Part shown: positions 18,742-32,382 of the stretch, piece after piece
How the letters are laid out: each line of letters begins with the position of its first letter
Position numbering within the stretch: position 1 is the first letter of the stretch
Assembly: GCA_021324155.1 (NCBI GenBank)
Contig: JAJPJQ010000052.1
Location: 1-54,032, forward strand
Length of the DNA stretch: 54,032 nt
Source of the DNA: Pseudomonadota bacterium
GTDB taxonomy: Bacteria > Desulfobacterota > Binatia > UBA9968
Direction: 5' to 3'
Program-made: the position numbers and the translations under genes
The notes under the pieces: generated by a model
The model's input: the letters and a program-made list of their open reading frames with translations, nothing else
Told to the model about the DNA's origin: nothing
The model's database searches: none

Positions 18742-19740
18742 GTGCGGCAACGGATTCTCATCGCGTTCGCGCTGCTCTCGTGGCTGTCCGGCACCGCCGC
18801 CGCGGAAACCGACAGCGTCCGCGTCCTATACTATCCGCCGTGGAACATCAGCAAGCTGCCGATGTATCTCGCGCGCGACGCGGGCATCTTCGAGCGCGCC
18901 GGCCTCAAAATCGCCTGGACCGATCCCGGCTCGAACGACAAGTCGGTCGCGGCGCTCAAAACCGGCGCGGCCGATATCGCGGTCGTGAGTTCGAATCAAG
19001 CCATTGTCAGCATGGCCACCGGCGGCGCGCCGATGACTTTTATCGGCAACACGGGCTACAACTATTCCGTCTTTCTCGCTGCGGCTTCGATCCGGAGCGC
19101 CGCCGAATTAAAGGGCAGGAAGATCGGTACGGGCGAGCCCGGCAGCACGCCCGATCAGTTGACGCGACTCGCCCTCAGAAGGCTCGGCGTCGATCCCGAA
19201 AAGGATGTGACCCTGGTCCCCTTCGACGAGGGCCGCAACTCGGATCGGGTCAAGAGTCTGCTTGCCGGCGACATAGCAGCGATGATCGTTACGGCCGAGG
19301 CGCTTTTCGATCTGGAAAAATCCGGACAGATCGGCCGCTTCAACAAGCTCACGGATAACCGGCAATTGAAAATCTACGCCGGCGGCGGCGCCGACTATGC
19401 CGTGGCGAACTCGTTTCTGAAAGCCCGCCGCGAAGAGGCGAAAAAATTCATGGCTGGGATCTGCGAAGGCATCGCGCGGGCGAGAAAAGACAAGGCAAAG
19501 GCGTTGGAGTTTGTCGCTAGGAGCGGGCGCGGCTTGGACCTCCCCAAGATCGAGTATCTCTATCAACTCTACATCACCGAAGTCATCCCGGCGCGGCCGC
19601 ATCTAAAGATCGAAGGCATCGAACTCGGTGTTCAGATGGCGGGATCGATGGCTCCTGCGGCGCGGGCGCTGAAGGCGCAAGAACTGGTTGACGCGGCTCT
19701 GGTTCCGGAGCTTGAGAGAGAAGGGCGCTGCAATTTCTAG
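18742..19740 (+). CDS. ABC transporter substrate-binding protein (NitT/TauT type)
   Basis: A 332-residue receptor with a GTG start nine bases after the amidohydrolase gene, so the two are probably one operon. The signal peptide is residues 1-21 (ending GTAAAE). The first lobe is VRVLYYPPWNISKLPMYLARDAGIFERAGLKIAWTDPGSNDKSVAALKTGAADIAVVSSNQA; the second begins LKGRKIGTGEPGSTPDQLTRLALRRLGVDPEKDVTL. It may capture the product or substrate of the upstream periplasmic amidohydrolase, an inference from position only. No permease gene follows. Confidence 0.84.
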   Translation: MRQRILIAFALLSWLSGTAAAETDSVRVLYYPPWNISKLPMYLARDAGIFERAGLKIAWTDPGSNDKSVAALKTGAADIAVVSSNQAIVSMATGGAPMTFIGNTGYNYSVFLAAASIRSAAELKGRKIGTGEPGSTPDQLTRLALRRLGVDPEKDVTLVPFDEGRNSDRVKSLLAGDIAAMIVTAEALFDLEKSGQIGRFNKLTDNRQLKIYAGGGADYAVANSFLKARREEAKKFMAGICEGIARARKDKAKALEFVARSGRGLDLPKIEYLYQLYITEVIPARPHLKIEGIELGVQMAGSMAPAARALKAQELVDAALVPELEREGRCNF

Positions 19741-25243: not shown

Positions 25244-26290
25244 CTACTTCCAAAGCTCCTTGAAGAATCCCGAGCGCCGCAATTCCTCTACGTACCGGTT
25301 GTCGTAGTAGGCGCTCATCGGCGTCGCGGCGGCGGCTTTCGCGTCGACCAAATTCGCCTGAACCATTTCCTTGACGATGTCGCGAATCGCCGCTTCGGGA
25401 ACGAGCGGCTCTTTCGCGAAGCTCTCGGCCGCGAACGCCGCGATCCGGTCAGCTAGAACGGCGTCCTTCACCGGCATCCATTTGTTCATCACTTTCTTTG
25501 TGAATTCCCGGTCCGTGACGATCACCTTCGTGGCCTGTGCGACGCTCTTGAGCAAACGCAGCAGGCCGTCGGGGTTCTTTTCCACGGCCGAGCGCTTCGC
25601 GACGATGCCGTTGGTGATGAAATTGGCCCCGCCTTTTTGCAGATCGGCGGGCGTAACCAGCTCGTTGAATCCCTGAGACTTCAATTGAAAATTGTACGGC
25701 GGGCTCACTACGGCGGCGTCAATAGTACCGTTCACGAGCCCCGCGGCCTCCTCCGGCTGCCCGCCCATTTGCAGGATAGTGACGCCTTTTAGACCGTAAA
25801 CGTCCATGGCCGTCTGCAGAGCAAAATGGGTCACAGTGCCGAGACGGCTCACGCCGATTTTTTTGCCGGAGAGATCCTGCGGCTTTGCGATCTCCGCCTT
25901 TGTCATGACCGATTGCGTGAAGCGCGGCACGGTGGCCGCGACTTGAATGATGTCGCCGCCTCTCAAGACATTTGAGATGACCGCCGGCCCGCCCGAGCCG
26001 GCGACGTCGGCAGCGCCGGAGAGCATAGCTTGAAACAGCGCCGATGAAGCGCCGATGAATATAACATCGACGTCGATGCCATTCTTCTCGTAGAGGTGCG
26101 CTTCGCGCGCCACGAACAAAGGCAGGCTGTTTATGCCGACAGGCGAGAAGGGCACAGGGACCTTTTTCAGCGCCTGCGCATCAACGGGTGGCGGCGTGCA
26201 AAACAGCGCCAGAAGAAGCGCGGGCAGACATTTTCTCACGACGCGTATTGCGTGTGAGGGTAGAACCCATCGCTTGCAAACATCGTTCAT
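25244..26290 (-). CDS. ABC transporter substrate-binding protein (NitT/TauT type)
   Basis: The start at 26290 follows AAGGAGG by eight bases; an earlier in-frame start is rejected. The 348-residue protein has a long signal region (about 1-38, with LPALLLALFCTPPPVDAQ). The first lobe is VPVPFSPVGINSLPLFVAREAHLYEKNGIDVDVIFIGASSALFQAMLSGAADVAGSGG, and the hinge is LSGKKIGVSRLGTVTHFALQTAMDVYG. It is divergent from another receptor gene at 26515. Their shared upstream region is 224 bases long. Confidence 0.85.
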   Translation of the reverse strand: MNDVCKRWVLPSHAIRVVRKCLPALLLALFCTPPPVDAQALKKVPVPFSPVGINSLPLFVAREAHLYEKNGIDVDVIFIGASSALFQAMLSGAADVAGSGGPAVISNVLRGGDIIQVAATVPRFTQSVMTKAEIAKPQDLSGKKIGVSRLGTVTHFALQTAMDVYGLKGVTILQMGGQPEEAAGLVNGTIDAAVVSPPYNFQLKSQGFNELVTPADLQKGGANFITNGIVAKRSAVEKNPDGLLRLLKSVAQATKVIVTDREFTKKVMNKWMPVKDAVLADRIAAFAAESFAKEPLVPEAAIRDIVKEMVQANLVDAKAAAATPMSAYYDNRYVEELRRSGFFKELWK

Positions 26291-26439
26291 GGCAAAGCCT
26301 CCTTTTTCGGACTTGCCGCCGCAATCAATCGACGGCGCCGCCACGAAGTGATCCCAAAACGCGGGTCAATAGCCCGACGGCAAATCTACAAGGCCGGCGG
26401 AAAGCCTGCAAGGGTGAAAAGATTGATCAAAAGGCCGGA

Positions 26440-26469
26440 TTGACGTTTCAGCGACGACGGCGATATGAT
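26440..26469 (+). promoter_or_regulatory. sigma70-type promoter for the binding-protein gene at 26515
   Basis: TTGACG at 26440-26445 and TATGAT at 26464-26469 are 18 bases apart. The transcript would start near 26476, leaving a leader of about 40 bases before the ATG. Confidence 0.6.
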
Positions 26470-26514
26470 CCGCGTATCTTCGCTATAGTGCCGCGTTGCG
26501 TCTGGAGACGATCC

Positions 26515-27504
26515 ATGAAGCGGTTGCCGCTCGTAACGATCGCCACGGCTTTAATAGCTTTCCTCTGCGGCGGGACTTTGCTTGCGCAGGAGCGGATGCG
26601 CATGGCGTGGGCCGGAACCTCACCGTCGAACACGCCGATCTGGGTCGCCGATCAGAAAGGCTTCTTCAAGAACAACGGGCTCAGCGCCGAAGTTATCGCG
26701 ATCAGCGCCAGCACGATCGCCATCCAGGCGCTGCTCACGGGGGAAGTCGAGTTCATTATCGCGCCTTCCGCGACGCTGGTCACGTCGCGCCTGGCAGGCG
26801 CCGACGCGATCATGGTCTCGACCAATCTGCCCTGGTTCATCGATCATATCGTGTCGATCGCCGATATCACGACGATGGAACAGCTGAAGGGCAAGATCGG
26901 TGGCGTCAATCGCCTCGGCACGACATCCGATATGACGCTGCGCCTCGCGCTCAGGCGCTTCGGTATCGACCCGGAGAAGGACACGAAGATCATCGCCACC
27001 GGCGAAAATCCCCAGCGCCTCGCCGCGCTATCGCGCAACGTCACGCAATTCACTCTGTTGAGCGAGCCTCTGGTGCGGGAAGCCGAGAAGATGGGATTCA
27101 GAGATTTGGCGGACATCGGCCCGCTCAAAATTCCCTATCACGTGAACGCGGTAGTGACGCGCGAGAAGACCGTCAAGGAGCGTCGGCCGCTCGTCCTCAA
27201 AGTCGTGCGCGCTTTCGCCGAAGCGCTGCACTTCATCAAGACCAACAAAGAAGAAACCAAGGCCCTGATCGGCAAGAATCTCAAAGTCAAGGATCCCGAA
27301 GGGCTAGAGCGCGCCTATCGCGCCTTCAGCGCTGCATTTCCGGAAATTCCGTATCCCAGCGCCGAAGGCGTCAAAACCCTGCTCGACGACATGGCGCCGC
27401 GGACGCCGAAAGCGGCGGCGGCCGACGCTAAAAGCTTCGTCGATATGAGTGTCGTACAGGAACTCGAGGCTTCGGGGTTCTTCAAACAGCTCTACAAAAA
27501 ATAA
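26515..27504 (+). CDS. ABC transporter substrate-binding protein (NitT/TauT type)
   Basis: The ATG at 26515 gives a proper signal peptide (KRLPLVTIATALIAFLCGGTLLAQE); a much longer open frame upstream lacks this and is not used. The 329-residue protein has the first lobe MRMAWAGTSPSNTPIWVADQKGFFKNNGLSAEVIAISASTIAIQALLTGEVEFI, a hinge LKGKIGGVNRLGTTSDMTLRLALRRFGIDPEKD, and the family closing DMSVVQELEASGFFKQLYKK. It has its own promoter and a terminator-like hairpin directly after the stop, so it appears to be a single-gene unit. Confidence 0.85.
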   Translation: MKRLPLVTIATALIAFLCGGTLLAQERMRMAWAGTSPSNTPIWVADQKGFFKNNGLSAEVIAISASTIAIQALLTGEVEFIIAPSATLVTSRLAGADAIMVSTNLPWFIDHIVSIADITTMEQLKGKIGGVNRLGTTSDMTLRLALRRFGIDPEKDTKIIATGENPQRLAALSRNVTQFTLLSEPLVREAEKMGFRDLADIGPLKIPYHVNAVVTREKTVKERRPLVLKVVRAFAEALHFIKTNKEETKALIGKNLKVKDPEGLERAYRAFSAAFPEIPYPSAEGVKTLLDDMAPRTPKAAAADAKSFVDMSVVQELEASGFFKQLYKK

Positions 27505-28649: not shown

Positions 28650-29414
28650 CTAGTGCAGCACCGCGCCGCCGTTGACGAGAATCGTCTGGCCCGTCACGAA
28701 GGCGCTCAGGTCCGACAACAAATACAGCGCTGTGCCGACCAGATCTTCCGGCTGCTCAATGCGCTTGAGAATCCGCGTCGAGGCGGAGCGTTCGTAATTC
28801 TTCACGGCCGCTTCAGTAGCTTTTTCCTCGCTCATCGTCGCGCCGGGCGCGAGCGTATTCACGCGGATGTTGTCCGGCCCCAACTCGCGCGCGAGCGCGC
28901 GGCTGAAGCCGACGACCGCGGCTTTGGAAGTCACGTAGTGCATCATTGTCAAGCCGCCGTTGAACGCCATATTGGAGGAAATATTGACCACGCTGCCTTG
29001 CTTGTGCCGCTGCATTGCCGGCACGATCGCGCGGCTCGCCAGCCACAGGCCCTTGACGTTGACGGCGAACATTCGATCCCACGCTTCCTCGGTGATGTCC
29101 TGCCAGCTTCCCTTTTCCGCCGGCACGCTCATGAAGACCGCCGCGTTGTTGATCAGGCCGTCGATCTTGCCGTAAGCGTCGAGCGTTTTCTGCGCCATCT
29201 CCTGGCAGCTGGCGAAATTCGATACATCCAATGTAGTGGCGAGCGCCTTGCCGCCGCTGTCCTGAATCGCCTTGGCGACCCCTTCCGCCGCTCGGCCGTC
29301 GATGTCGCCGACAACGGCGGACCCGCCTTCGCGCGCGATGCCCAGGCAATAAGCTTTGCCGATGCCGTGCCCTCCGCCGGTCACGATAACGACTTTGCCG
29401 TCCAATAATCCCAT
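28650..29414 (-). CDS. short-chain dehydrogenase/reductase (SDR)
   Basis: A 254-residue classical SDR of the FabG/glucose-dehydrogenase type. The cofactor motif is VTGGGHGIG (TGxxxGIG) at about 10-18. D36/D60-type positions are GDIDGRAAEG and TLDVSNF, the NNA motif is INNAAVF, the catalytic serine is in NISSNMAF, and the YxxxK pair is YVTSK. The acidic residue after strand 2 (VVGDID) suggests NAD rather than NADP. The end LSAFVTGQTILVNGG is standard. It is cytoplasmic, with an unknown alcohol/ketone substrate, and probably heads a two-gene operon with the amidohydrolase. Confidence 0.88.
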   Translation of the reverse strand: MGLLDGKVVIVTGGGHGIGKAYCLGIAREGGSAVVGDIDGRAAEGVAKAIQDSGGKALATTLDVSNFASCQEMAQKTLDAYGKIDGLINNAAVFMSVPAEKGSWQDITEEAWDRMFAVNVKGLWLASRAIVPAMQRHKQGSVVNISSNMAFNGGLTMMHYVTSKAAVVGFSRALARELGPDNIRVNTLAPGATMSEEKATEAAVKNYERSASTRILKRIEQPEDLVGTALYLLSDLSAFVTGQTILVNGGAVLH

Positions 29415-29621: not shown

Positions 29622-29649
29622 TTGCGGACGGTTCGGCGCGTGCTAGGTC
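29622..29649 (+). promoter_or_regulatory. possible extended -10 promoter for the AhpD-like selenoprotein gene
   Basis: TTGCGG at 29622-29627 and TAGGTC at 29644-29649 are 16 bases apart, with TGC just before the -10. The arrangement resembles the one at 6615. The -10 match is modest. Confidence 0.35.
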
Positions 29650-29684
29650 TTATTCGTACGAGCATCCGAAAGGAGGGTTGTAAA

Positions 29685-30281
29685 ATGGCTTGGATTAAAA
29701 CGTTCGAGGAGAGCGAAGCGCGGGGCTTGCTTGCGTGGGTTTACCGGGTGATGCGCTGGACGCAGGGACGGGTACCGAACATCGTCAAAGTATCCAGCCT
29801 GCACCCGAGACTTCTGGTCACGCTGGGGCCATTGTTCCGCACGCTGATGGAAGGGCCGTCGCCGCTCAGCCGCGCGGAGCGGAAGATGGTCGCGATCGTC
29901 TCGTCCAGGGTGAACAACTGCTTCTATTGAACGGAGTCCAACGGAGAGTTTCTCCGTCAAGAGCTGAACGACGCTGAACTGGCCGATGCGCTGATGAAAG
30001 ACTATCGCAAAGCTGCGGTTACACCCGAGATCATGGAGCTGTTGTCCTTCGCCGAAAATGTGACGCGCGATGCGAGGCGAATTAGCTCGGACGACATCGC
30101 GCGGCTGCGCGCAGCCGGTTTCCCGGACCGTGCGATCCTCGACGCGGCGCACATTGCGGGCTTTTTCTGCTACATGAACCGTGTCGTGCAGGCACTCGGC
30201 GCGGATACCCGGCCCGATGTTGGCGACACTGTGGGAGAAAAACTCCGCAAAATTATGGTGAGCAAGCCGTTGCAGATTTGA
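29685..30281 (+). CDS. AhpD-like (carboxymuconolactone decarboxylase family) protein with in-frame UGA, probable selenocysteine (CxxU)
   Basis: AGGAGGG precedes the ATG at 29685. The frame reads MAWIKTFEESEARGLLAWVYRVMRW through SRAERKMVAIVSSRVNNCFY, meets TGA at 29928-29930, then continues without another stop for 116 codons (TESNGEFLRQELNDAELADALMKDYRKAAVTPEIMELLSFAENVTRDARRIS, and a typical FPDRAILDAAHIAGFFCYMNRVVQALG). Related peroxidase-like proteins have CFYC here, so TGA replaces the second cysteine of the redox CxxC (C79 and position 82). AhpD-like selenoproteins with a CxxU centre are known. A hairpin with a G-led loop stands at the right distance after the UGA. With Sec the product is 198 residues and would reduce peroxides or act in thiol redox chemistry. 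A sequencing error or true pseudogene is the alternative. Confidence 0.8.
29941..29957 (+). promoter_or_regulatory. candidate bacterial SECIS hairpin
   Basis: ACGGAGA and TCTCCGT form a perfect seven-pair stem around the three-base loop GTT. The loop begins 17 bases after the UGA at 29928-29930 and its first base is G. Both points agree with the general bacterial SECIS rules (apical loop roughly 16-37 bases downstream with a G among the first loop bases). An upstream ACGGAG copy at 29931 could form an alternative pairing. Confidence 0.65.
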
Positions 30282-30593
30282 GACGGTTTGTTTCTGCAGA
30301 AACTCAACATACCCCACAGAGACGCAGGGATACGCCGTCACTTCCGAAGCCGAATGGTCGCCATGAATTACGGCGATGTTTGGCCGTAAGTTCCTTCGGA
30401 GATTACCCGGGACTACAGCGGCGGAGGCGACGGTCCATCCCTGGCGAAAGCGATCAGGAATAGAGTGTTATTAAATGGTGTAATCCGAGACGCGAATGGC
30501 AACTGCAGCAAGCTGCCTCACGCCAATGTTTTAACATTGTCGGATAATGATTGCTCAAATCGGGCGAAGAGCGAAGGTCAGTCTAAAACCGTC
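30282..30593. other. about 310 bases between convergent genes, no gene seen
   Basis: A 61-codon open frame starting at 30278 has no ribosome site and a low-complexity charged sequence, so I do not call it. No clean terminator with a T-run was found. Confidence 0.4.
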
Positions 30594-31958
30594 TTATTTC
30601 CAGCACCCTTCCGCCGCGATTAGATCGAACACTTCCGTGAGGATGCCCGCCGCAGTGTCGACAGTTTCTTTGTCGATGGTGAGCGCGGGCTGAATGCGAA
30701 AGCGCGGCGCGTAGGCCATCGTGAGGAGACCCCGGCGGAGACATTCGTCGAAGATGCGGCGGCAGGTTTGTTGCCCGAGCGGCTCCTTGCTCTGTTTGTC
30801 GCGGACAAGGTCGATACCGATGAAAAGCCCGGCGCCGCGCACGTCTCCGACGAAGGGGTAGCGCTCGGTCCAGTTCGATAGCAATTCTAAAAAATGCGTG
30901 CCGACCCGGCGCGAGTTCTCGACCAGATCCTCGTCATCGATGATCCTGAGCGCGGCGGCGGCCGCCGCTGCAGCTAATGGATTGCCGCCGTAGCTCGACG
31001 AGGAGCCAGAGGGATTGGACCACGGTTTCGCCTGCACGATCTCGTCCGTCGAAATAATTCCGCTTATGGGCAAGCCGCCGCCGAACTGCTTGCCGATGGC
31101 GACGATATCGGGCTCGACGCCGGTGTGGTCGGTAGCCCAGAATTTCCCGGTGCGGCCGAATCCGGTGATCATCTCGTCCGCGATGAGCAGGGCGCCGAAG
31201 TCGCGTGCGACCTCCTTGATCGCTGGTAGGTATTCCGCCGGCGGGATGACGTTCCCGGCGGTGCCCTGCATCGGCTCGATCAGGAATGCGGCGACGGCGC
31301 CGGAGCTGTTCTGCTTCACTTGCGCGCGGGTCGCCTCGACGCAGGCGAGCCCGCAGGAAGGATATTTCAGCTTCAGCGGGCAGCGGTAGCAATCGCCGTA
31401 GGGGGCGATGTGCACGCCGGGAACCATCGGTCCGTAACCGTTCTTGAAGTCCGATCCCATCAGCGAGAGAACGCCCATCGTTTTTCCGTGAAAACCGCCG
31501 CTGAAGCTCACGAACTCGAATTTGCCTGTGTATGATTTCGCGAGCCGCAGCGCCGACTCGACCGCCTCGGCTCCACTCGAATAGAGCTGCGCGCGGTGCA
31601 GCGCGGCCGCGGGAGGGTGCGCGGCGAGGCGCTCGAAGAGCTCGACGCGCGCCGCGCTCGTGAAGCTTCCGACCGAGGCTTGCTCGACTTGCGCCTGCAC
31701 CGCTTTGACGTATTCGGGATGGCTGTGGCCGAGAGCGTTGACTCCGATGCCGCCGATGAGATCGAGCAGCGTGTTGCCGTCGGCGTCCGTGACGGCGCTG
31801 CCGCGCGCCTCTTTGACCGCGATGCCTGAGTAAAGCGCGAACCCTTGCAATCCCGGCGCGAGATGCGCGTCTTCGCGCGCGCGCAGCGCGCGACTTTTCG
31901 GTCCCGGAATCGGAGTTTGAATATGCGGCTTTTGATTCTTCGGCTGCTGGTGGCCCAC
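30594..31958 (-). CDS. class III aminotransferase (PLP-dependent, aspartate aminotransferase family)
   Basis: The GTG at 31958, seven bases after the GtrA stop, is taken as the start; the open frame extends further but into GtrA coding sequence. The 454-residue enzyme has TDADGNTLLDLIGGIGVNALGHSHP, the phosphate-binding SSGAEAVESALRLAKSYTG, LIADEMITGFGRTGKFWATDHTGVEPDIVAIGKQFGGGLPISG with the PLP lysine in GKQFGGG, and RIQPALTIDKE near the end. A four-cysteine insertion (CYRCPLKLKYPSCGLAC) occurs in GABA- and diamine-type members. It transfers an amino group between a 2-oxo acid and an omega-amino compound or keto sugar. Its operon partners suggest a head-group or lipid role. Confidence 0.85.
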   Translation of the reverse strand: MGHQQPKNQKPHIQTPIPGPKSRALRAREDAHLAPGLQGFALYSGIAVKEARGSAVTDADGNTLLDLIGGIGVNALGHSHPEYVKAVQAQVEQASVGSFTSAARVELFERLAAHPPAAALHRAQLYSSGAEAVESALRLAKSYTGKFEFVSFSGGFHGKTMGVLSLMGSDFKNGYGPMVPGVHIAPYGDCYRCPLKLKYPSCGLACVEATRAQVKQNSSGAVAAFLIEPMQGTAGNVIPPAEYLPAIKEVARDFGALLIADEMITGFGRTGKFWATDHTGVEPDIVAIGKQFGGGLPISGIISTDEIVQAKPWSNPSGSSSSYGGNPLAAAAAAAALRIIDDEDLVENSRRVGTHFLELLSNWTERYPFVGDVRGAGLFIGIDLVRDKQSKEPLGQQTCRRIFDECLRRGLLTMAYAPRFRIQPALTIDKETVDTAAGILTEVFDLIAAEGCWK

Positions 31959-31965
31959 AGTATCG

Positions 31966-32382
31966 TCAGGCGTAGGTTTGACGGTTAAAGACGAAGTGCC
32001 GATGCAGGGGAAAATTGAACAGAAGGCCCACTGATATCGCAACGATGAGGCGCGAGAGCGCGTAGTGCAGATGAACGTAATCGGTCAGCAAGTACACGCC
32101 CGCAGTGTTGAGCGCGAGACTGACCGCTGAGACCACGGCGTAGCGGACGACCTGTCCGTGAAGGGCCTCGTGCTCCGCCGTAAAGGTCCAATGTCGCCCG
32201 AGAAGGAAGTTGACGACGGCGCCGATGAACGCGCCGCTCGCCGTGGCCGCGACGTACCAGACGCGGGCGACTTCGGCCAAGAAAACCATCGAGCTGAAAT
32301 CGACGAGAGTCGCCGTGAGCGACGCGACCTGCGAGCGCCTGAGCGACACCAGCAGCGGCGGCGGCGGAAGCCGTCGTTTCAT
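31966..32382 (-). CDS. GtrA-family membrane protein
   Basis: A 138-residue protein with four hydrophobic helices and the family pattern SQVASLTATLVDFSSMVFLAEVARVWYVAATASGAFIGAVVNFLLGRHWTF through LLFNFPLHRHFVFNR. GtrA-type proteins are thought to flip polyprenyl-linked sugars or otherwise assist cell-surface glycan synthesis in the inner membrane. The start overlaps the stop of the CDP-alcohol phosphatidyltransferase gene (ATGA), so the two are translationally coupled. Confidence 0.85.
   Translation of the reverse strand: MKRRLPPPPLLVSLRRSQVASLTATLVDFSSMVFLAEVARVWYVAATASGAFIGAVVNFLLGRHWTFTAEHEALHGQVVRYAVVSAVSLALNTAGVYLLTDYVHLHYALSRLIVAISVGLLFNFPLHRHFVFNRQTYA

Follow-up and report, generated by a model that had tools for sequence, protein, structure and literature searches.

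Selenoproteins built on the AhpD fold are a known kind. An AhpD-like family with a CxxU redox motif was first listed from the Sargasso Sea set (PMC1088965), its representative is MCB9421940.1 (PMC13188914, PMC9312934), and the 2026 catalogue lists TIGR01926/COG2128 with CxxU among its selenoprotein families (PMC13188914). PMC2398784 also belongs to the literature basis of this work. The constraints published for the bacterial SECIS are a loop of 3-9 nt with a G in the first two loop positions, a stem of 4-16 bp, a spacing of 16-37 nt and a minimum free energy of -7.5 kcal/mol or below (PMC13188914). The proton relay of AhpD consists of Glu, Cys, a middle residue, Cys and His; both Cys and the His are invariant among the structures compared in PMC3141380, and the Glu is replaced by His in one of them.

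The AhpD-like gene and its in-frame TGA

The window, by which we mean the whole stretch of 54,032 nucleotides analysed here, carries at 29685..30281 (+) what is almost certainly a bacterial selenoprotein gene of the AhpD fold and of the peroxidase-related type TIGR01926, with Sec insertion predicted from sequence. The gene, delimited by family scores and orthologues, encodes 198 residues followed by a TGA stop and is preceded by the ribosome-binding sequence AAGGAGG (29670..29676, +), 8 nt ahead of the ATG at 29685. Its translation, MAWIKTF...NNCFYUTESNGEFLRQ...PLQI, holds one internal TGA (29928..29930, +) at codon 82, three residues past Cys79 (29919..29921, +), and the frame stays open across this codon as far as the terminal TGA at 30279-30281. 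The redox motif reads C79-F-Y-U82, with U replacing the second Cys of CxxC and the spacing of the two redox residues preserved, and the TGA is indeed at the second residue of the motif, where the original prediction had put it. Four TGAs of the window have at least 30 open codons before them, at least 60 after them and a hairpin of at least six Watson-Crick pairs; CxxU occurs in this one alone.

Family profiles were scored with the TGA read as Cys. The protein reaches 129.9 bits against TIGR01926 (peroxidase-related enzyme, cut-off 81.8), which makes it a member, and 32 bits against Pfam CMD for the whole protein (cut-off 23). A Pfam CMD search of the genome at E 0.001 listed four other genes of the same genome and not the window gene. 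PDB entries 2pfx, 3c1l, 2oyo and 6k40 are similar over query residues 22-178 (E 4e-26 to 2e-23), with weaker likeness to 2prr and 6e8l. TIGR01926 and the PDB homologues align on both sides of the TGA, in agreement with the earlier claim of a frame open on both sides with continuous homology, and the proposed alignment with Cys homologues places a Cys opposite the predicted Sec82 in 2pfx and 3c1l. An AlphaFold model made from four sequences (pLDDT 47.7) was too poor for use.

The terminal TGA was considered as a second Sec codon and rejected. It is judged an ordinary stop because the three full-length orthologues, whose lengths vary, end in TAA or TAG. The palindrome GTTTCTGCAGAAAC after it (window 30279-30310) was rejected as a SECIS, its loop lying 13 nt from the TGA, outside the range of 16-37 nt.

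The predicted SECIS hairpin, its conservation and the Sec machinery

The putative bacterial SECIS at 29941..29957 (+), assigned from geometry, conservation and covariation, pairs ACGGAGA (29941-29947) with TCTCCGT (29951-29957) in a 7-bp stem around the loop GTT (29948-29950), all pairs being Watson-Crick. The hairpin starts 10 nt past the TGA and its loop lies 17 nt from it, so that the perfect seven-pair hairpin with a G-first loop announced 17 bases downstream was found in its place; with a 3-nt GUU loop, 7 bp, 17 nt of spacing and -9.1 kcal/mol it falls within the bacterial SECIS ranges given in the catalogue (PMC13188914). This energy is that of the 23-nt hairpin piece, for which z is -3.57 and 1 of 200 shuffles was equally good. 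A 61-nt fold starting before the TGA takes a different minimum-energy structure (z -0.19), and a 42-nt fold contains the hairpin without significance (z -0.33). Because neither of these two folds gave a significant z-score, the case for a SECIS rests on comparison and not on energy. As a feature of a single sequence the hairpin is only mildly unusual and alone constitutes weak evidence, a point that the original prediction missed: a G-loop hairpin of at least 7 bp at suitable spacing is found at 694 of 107,944 window positions on both strands, after 10 of the 1,599 TGA trinucleotides, and in 1,173 of 50,000 sequences that encode the same 20 residues with synonymous codons. The Rfam search of the window at gathering score found no family. 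A second copy of ACGGAG, directly 3' of the TGA, is not conserved among orthologues.

When 25 genomes of the family were searched, among them that of the window, 23 gave matches, 45 in all; one TGA lies inside 40 of these, and its position at CxxU was read in the loci examined. Orthologues are present in three other MAGs (L015, L016 and L017), with 74-80% identity in the search and 72-75% over full alignments, and L018 (68% identical) is a partial copy that starts just past the TGA at a contig end and has Asn86. Genes of this kind stand in VBLN01000214.1, VBKE01000019.1 and JACPDC010000047.1, three records titled as Deltaproteobacteria bacterium MAGs. The TGA occupies the identical codon in all four orthologues that span the site (the window gene and those of the three MAGs). 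Synonymous differences among these four amount to 0.63-0.91 per site, near saturation, and nonsynonymous ones to 0.08-0.19, on both sides of the TGA; the downstream half has a dN/dS of 0.03-0.16 over the six pairs, indicating purifying selection. The four genes share all six hairpin codons, versus 17 of 107 codons gene-wide (the six included), where the 107 are the degenerate codons with an invariant amino acid across the four; the nominal p of 7e-6 assumes independent codons. The longest identical stretch in the region compared covers 21 nt, those at 9 to 29 nt past the T of the TGA, and includes the hairpin. Further afield, a draw of 297 genomes of the phylum gave an orthologue-level match in the window's own genome only and three weaker ones (E 1e-25 or better); the three orthologue genomes are absent from these matches and are taken as not drawn. 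A draw of 148 genomes yielded 14 TIGR01926 matches in 12 genomes, four with a TGA (three in one genome and the window's) and ten without.

Covariation was assessed in 25 Sec homologues of the TIGR01926 type, 24 of them distinct. All seven pairs are kept in 24 rows, G-U counted, and L060 breaks two. Pair 4 is GC in 16 distinct rows and CG in 8, the switch from Gly (GGA) to Ala (GCA/GCG) being accompanied by a synonymous Leu change from CTC to CTG; pair 7 shows one change on both sides. Stem cells are paired in 98.8% of cases, against 92.0% in shuffles and at most 66.1% with the partner slid, and in percentage paired, in the number of cells with both sides changed and in covariation score the stem is matched by none of 500 shuffles. 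Two of the five measures lack a clear excess over shuffles (pairs changed on both sides, 17 of 500; pair types, 489 of 500), and since the sequences are related the shuffle fractions are not probabilities. None of 11 Cys homologues (L041, L065-L074) has the 7-pair stem; counting G-U, between 2 and 5 of the 7 pairs can form in them. Given the TGA in four of four orthologues, the six identical hairpin codons and the compensatory pairs, we take the hairpin to be beyond chance.

The original prediction hung on the presence of Sel machinery in the genome, and the whole set is there. In this genome (98.1% complete, 3.3% contaminated), selA (71316-72650, 602.9 bits), selB (69325-71211, 412.3 bits) and selD (68287-69216, 391.6 bits) are adjacent on the minus strand of contig 16 and each scores over its cut-off; selD has one TGA of its own, reading AAG-U-AAK. 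The tRNA-Sec gene (selC) is at contig 16:257-347 (74.8 bits) and has the anticodon TCA. Because the sequence is conserved and the Sec machinery is in the genome, we infer that UGA codon 82 is decoded as selenocysteine, which SelB and tRNA-Sec would accomplish under the direction of the hairpin.

A pseudogene, in which the TGA is a true stop left by a nonsense mutation and the downstream part is decaying, is very improbable. The mechanical list of open reading frames under table 11 does give two shorter frames, 29622-29930 and 29994-30281, the split that had been expected of automatic annotation; but purifying selection acts on the downstream half, four MAGs retain the TGA at synonymous divergence close to saturation, and the genome has a Sec system. 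It is harder still to believe that TGC or TGT was misread as TGA in sequencing or assembly, as the same TGA stands in L015, L016 and L017, which carry many synonymous differences from the window gene and from one another, and paralogues whose hairpin matches have the TGA too. A genetic code in which TGA stands for Trp or Gly throughout the genome (code 4 or 25) would account for the several genes of this genome with a single in-frame TGA. We give it equally little credence: read under table 11, several genes of the window align with Pfam families over almost their whole length, the in-frame TGAs examined in the genome fall at redox sites that are known or of Cys type, the genome has selA/selB/selD and a tRNA-Sec with anticodon TCA, and the window gene itself stops at a TGA. 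The selenoprotein gene is the reading that we retain in what follows.

Relay residues, possible function and gene neighbourhood

In the alignments, Lys67 (29883..29885, +) takes the place of the AhpD relay Glu, 12 residues ahead of the first Cys, and Asn86 (29940..29942, +) that of the relay His, 7 residues past it. Both Lys67 and Asn86 are invariant in the four full-length orthologues, which accordingly have neither relay residue, a feature that the original prediction missed; 2pfx and 3c1l retain the Glu and the His. Among 33 Sec genes, 21 keep the relay His; the 12 without it are the four of the window clade (Lys and Asn at the two positions), seven YciW-like genes (His and Asn) and L004 (Glu and Arg). 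The Cys genes have the His in 11 of 11 and the Glu in 10 of 11, L069 having Gln. Fisher's test of His loss in Sec versus Cys genes gives p 0.02 with 11 Cys genes and 0.16 with five, uncorrected for kinship, and neither value is a fair probability because the genes are related and the 12 fall in about three groups. The sequences thus give a hint of His loss among Sec homologues, which we keep as an indication only. Sec by itself does not abolish the His, since the other 21 of the 25 TIGR01926-type Sec genes keep it.

Selenocysteine has a low pKa. This may make deprotonation by a Glu/His relay unnecessary, and Lys67 possibly stabilises the selenolate. The loss of the relay residues offers a natural test of whether Sec frees an enzyme from Cys-activating residues. 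In the mechanism that we propose, the Sec82 selenolate would attack a hydroperoxide or a disulfide, Cys79 would resolve the product by selenenylsulfide formation, and a cellular dithiol donor of the lipoyl or thioredoxin type would re-reduce the selenenylsulfide. We lean towards such peroxidase or disulfide-reductase action by a relay-free Sec, with putative catalysis, substrate and electron donor. Without the relay Glu and His, the protein could also be a poor peroxidase or none at all.

Because the relay residues are gone, a protein with Sec inserted that serves as a thiol-disulfide adaptor or peroxide sensor, and not as a peroxidase, has to be weighed; we hold it to be the less probable role, though a plausible one. 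The exchange of Glu and His for Lys67 and Asn86 in all four full-length orthologues fits this role, and M. tuberculosis AhpD, an adaptor between lipoyl E2 and AhpC, offers a parallel. Neighbours point the same way at two of the five orthologue loci compared (the window, L056, L057, L058 and L079): genes for E1 alpha, E1 beta and a lipoyl-E2 end about 600 bp upstream of the AhpD orthologue in L057, and a gene resembling dihydrolipoyl (lipoamide) dehydrogenase ends about 210 bp upstream of it in L056. Against an adaptor, these neighbours are not conserved, each gene type being found at one locus of five and none in the window. A tblastn search for E1/E2/E3-like genes found none in the other fetched regions or the window, and a conserved 2-oxoacid-dehydrogenase operon was rejected, E1/E2 being near L057 only and the E3-like gene near L056 only. 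Peroxidase or disulfide-reductase action remains the role that we prefer.

The context of the window gene gives no partner, because it stands alone between genes of the opposite strand, an SDR gene upstream (28650-29414) and a class-III aminotransferase gene downstream (30594-32042), both minus. A B12-binding radical SAM gene follows the Sec gene on the opposite strand in L057 and is present in pieces in L079. Elsewhere in the window, three frames within 9 kb (18742-19740, 25244-26344 and 26188-27504) match NMT1/THI5-like substrate-binding proteins.

Other predicted selenoproteins and comparison with known families

A second predicted selenoprotein, of a type missed in the original prediction, is the dihydrolipoyl-dehydrogenase-like neighbour at L056:824-2164 (+), where reading through the TGA at 956-958 gives a 447-residue flavoprotein with the sequence GTCLARG-U-IPKK. 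U falls at the second Cys of the disulfide-reductase CxxxxC motif, a predicted CxxxxU. This type is found in six of the 25 genomes of the family, at least 69% identical to the L056 copy and with one TGA each. The copy of the window's own genome is at contig 41:184045-185382 (L102), and the others are L100, L101, L103 and L104, the copy of genome G015 being partial. A 6-bp stem (GGTGCT / AGCACC) with its loop 17 nt past the TGA is present in all six, and differences in the hairpin are confined to the loop. The draw of 297 genomes of the phylum contained the Sec flavoprotein at E 1e-110 in the window's own genome only. Its nearest NCBIfam model is dihydrolipoyl dehydrogenase (356.9 and 369.7 bits, cut-off 408.8), and the best 25 of 70 and of 84 NCBIfam matches include no selenoprotein model. 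Table 1 of the catalogue, which covers 119 families, holds no CxxxxU flavoprotein (PMC13188914); its 'putative mercuric reductase' selenoprotein has UxxU, a motif that differs from CxxxxU. A literature search pairing selenoprotein with CXXXXU returned nothing, and titles and abstract openings of the papers listed on lipoamide dehydrogenase and mercuric reductase mention no such Sec protein. The predicted Sec flavoprotein is a more novel item than the AhpD-like gene. Should it be confirmed, a central superfamily of disulfide reductases would have selenium at its active site, in a position that this table of the catalogue does not include (PMC13188914).

The Sec flavoprotein gene is directly upstream of the AhpD orthologue in VBLN01000214.1. 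It is conceivable, but unlikely, that the window clade is a Sec-dependent AhpD variant which discarded the relay as selenium made it unnecessary, and which is fed by the Sec flavoprotein reductase (dihydrolipoyl-dehydrogenase-like, C-x-x-x-x-U) in a selenium-to-selenium electron chain. Within the neighbourhoods scanned, an AhpD-like neighbour is seen at only one of the six Sec flavoprotein loci (L056), the two genes are on different contigs in the window's own genome, and the ten neighbouring proteins scanned in L130-L133 are of other kinds.

The same genome has a distant flavoprotein gene on contig 46 (L129:2915-4318) with a TGA at the second active-site Cys, GACVNYG-U-TPTK. Its nearest NCBIfam models are PRK06370.1-4 (523.6 bits, cut-off 629), and, with G-U allowed, seven pairs form a hairpin whose loop is 24 nt past the TGA.

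The window's own genome contains two other CMD-fold genes with one TGA each, L003:1381-1968 (contig 48, CPYU) and L004:1372-1956 (contig 3, CEYU), both without the relay His and both nearest to NF053654 at scores below its cut-off. Relatives have tandem arrays of two or three AhpD-like genes (G010:C271, G014:C119, G002:C30 and G002:C108), with an in-frame TGA in seven of nine; in the window's bacterial family, AhpD-like selenoproteins seem to have multiplied. A further CMD-fold paralogue of the genome (L002, contig 32:175433-175684) reads CEYV, with Val at the position of the second redox Cys and the His retained.

Two NCBIfam selenoprotein models border on the window protein. NF041238 (AhpD_rel_CFYUT, alkylhydroperoxidase-related (seleno)protein, Sargasso hypothetical protein 1) bears CFYUT in its name, and its 357 positions show a weak profile similarity to the window protein over the C-terminal part; the score is 50.9 bits for a cut-off of 175 and the window protein is therefore not a member. 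Nor does it belong to NF053654 (YciW-related (seleno)protein), with 12.1 bits for a cut-off of 310; this model is the best match of the paralogue L003 (164.9 bits), whose motif is CxxU and whose relay positions hold His and Asn. The closest relatives are the catalogued TIGR01926 CxxU selenoproteins, compared here through the family's listing and not through the sequence of its representative. They share with the window protein an NCBIfam score over the cut-off, the CxxU motif and a SECIS just downstream, and the window clade stands apart by Lys and Asn at the positions of the relay Glu and His. The original prediction that the gene extends rather than founds a family agrees with this catalogue entry (PMC13188914), and the window gene adds a well-supported member to a catalogued selenoprotein family.
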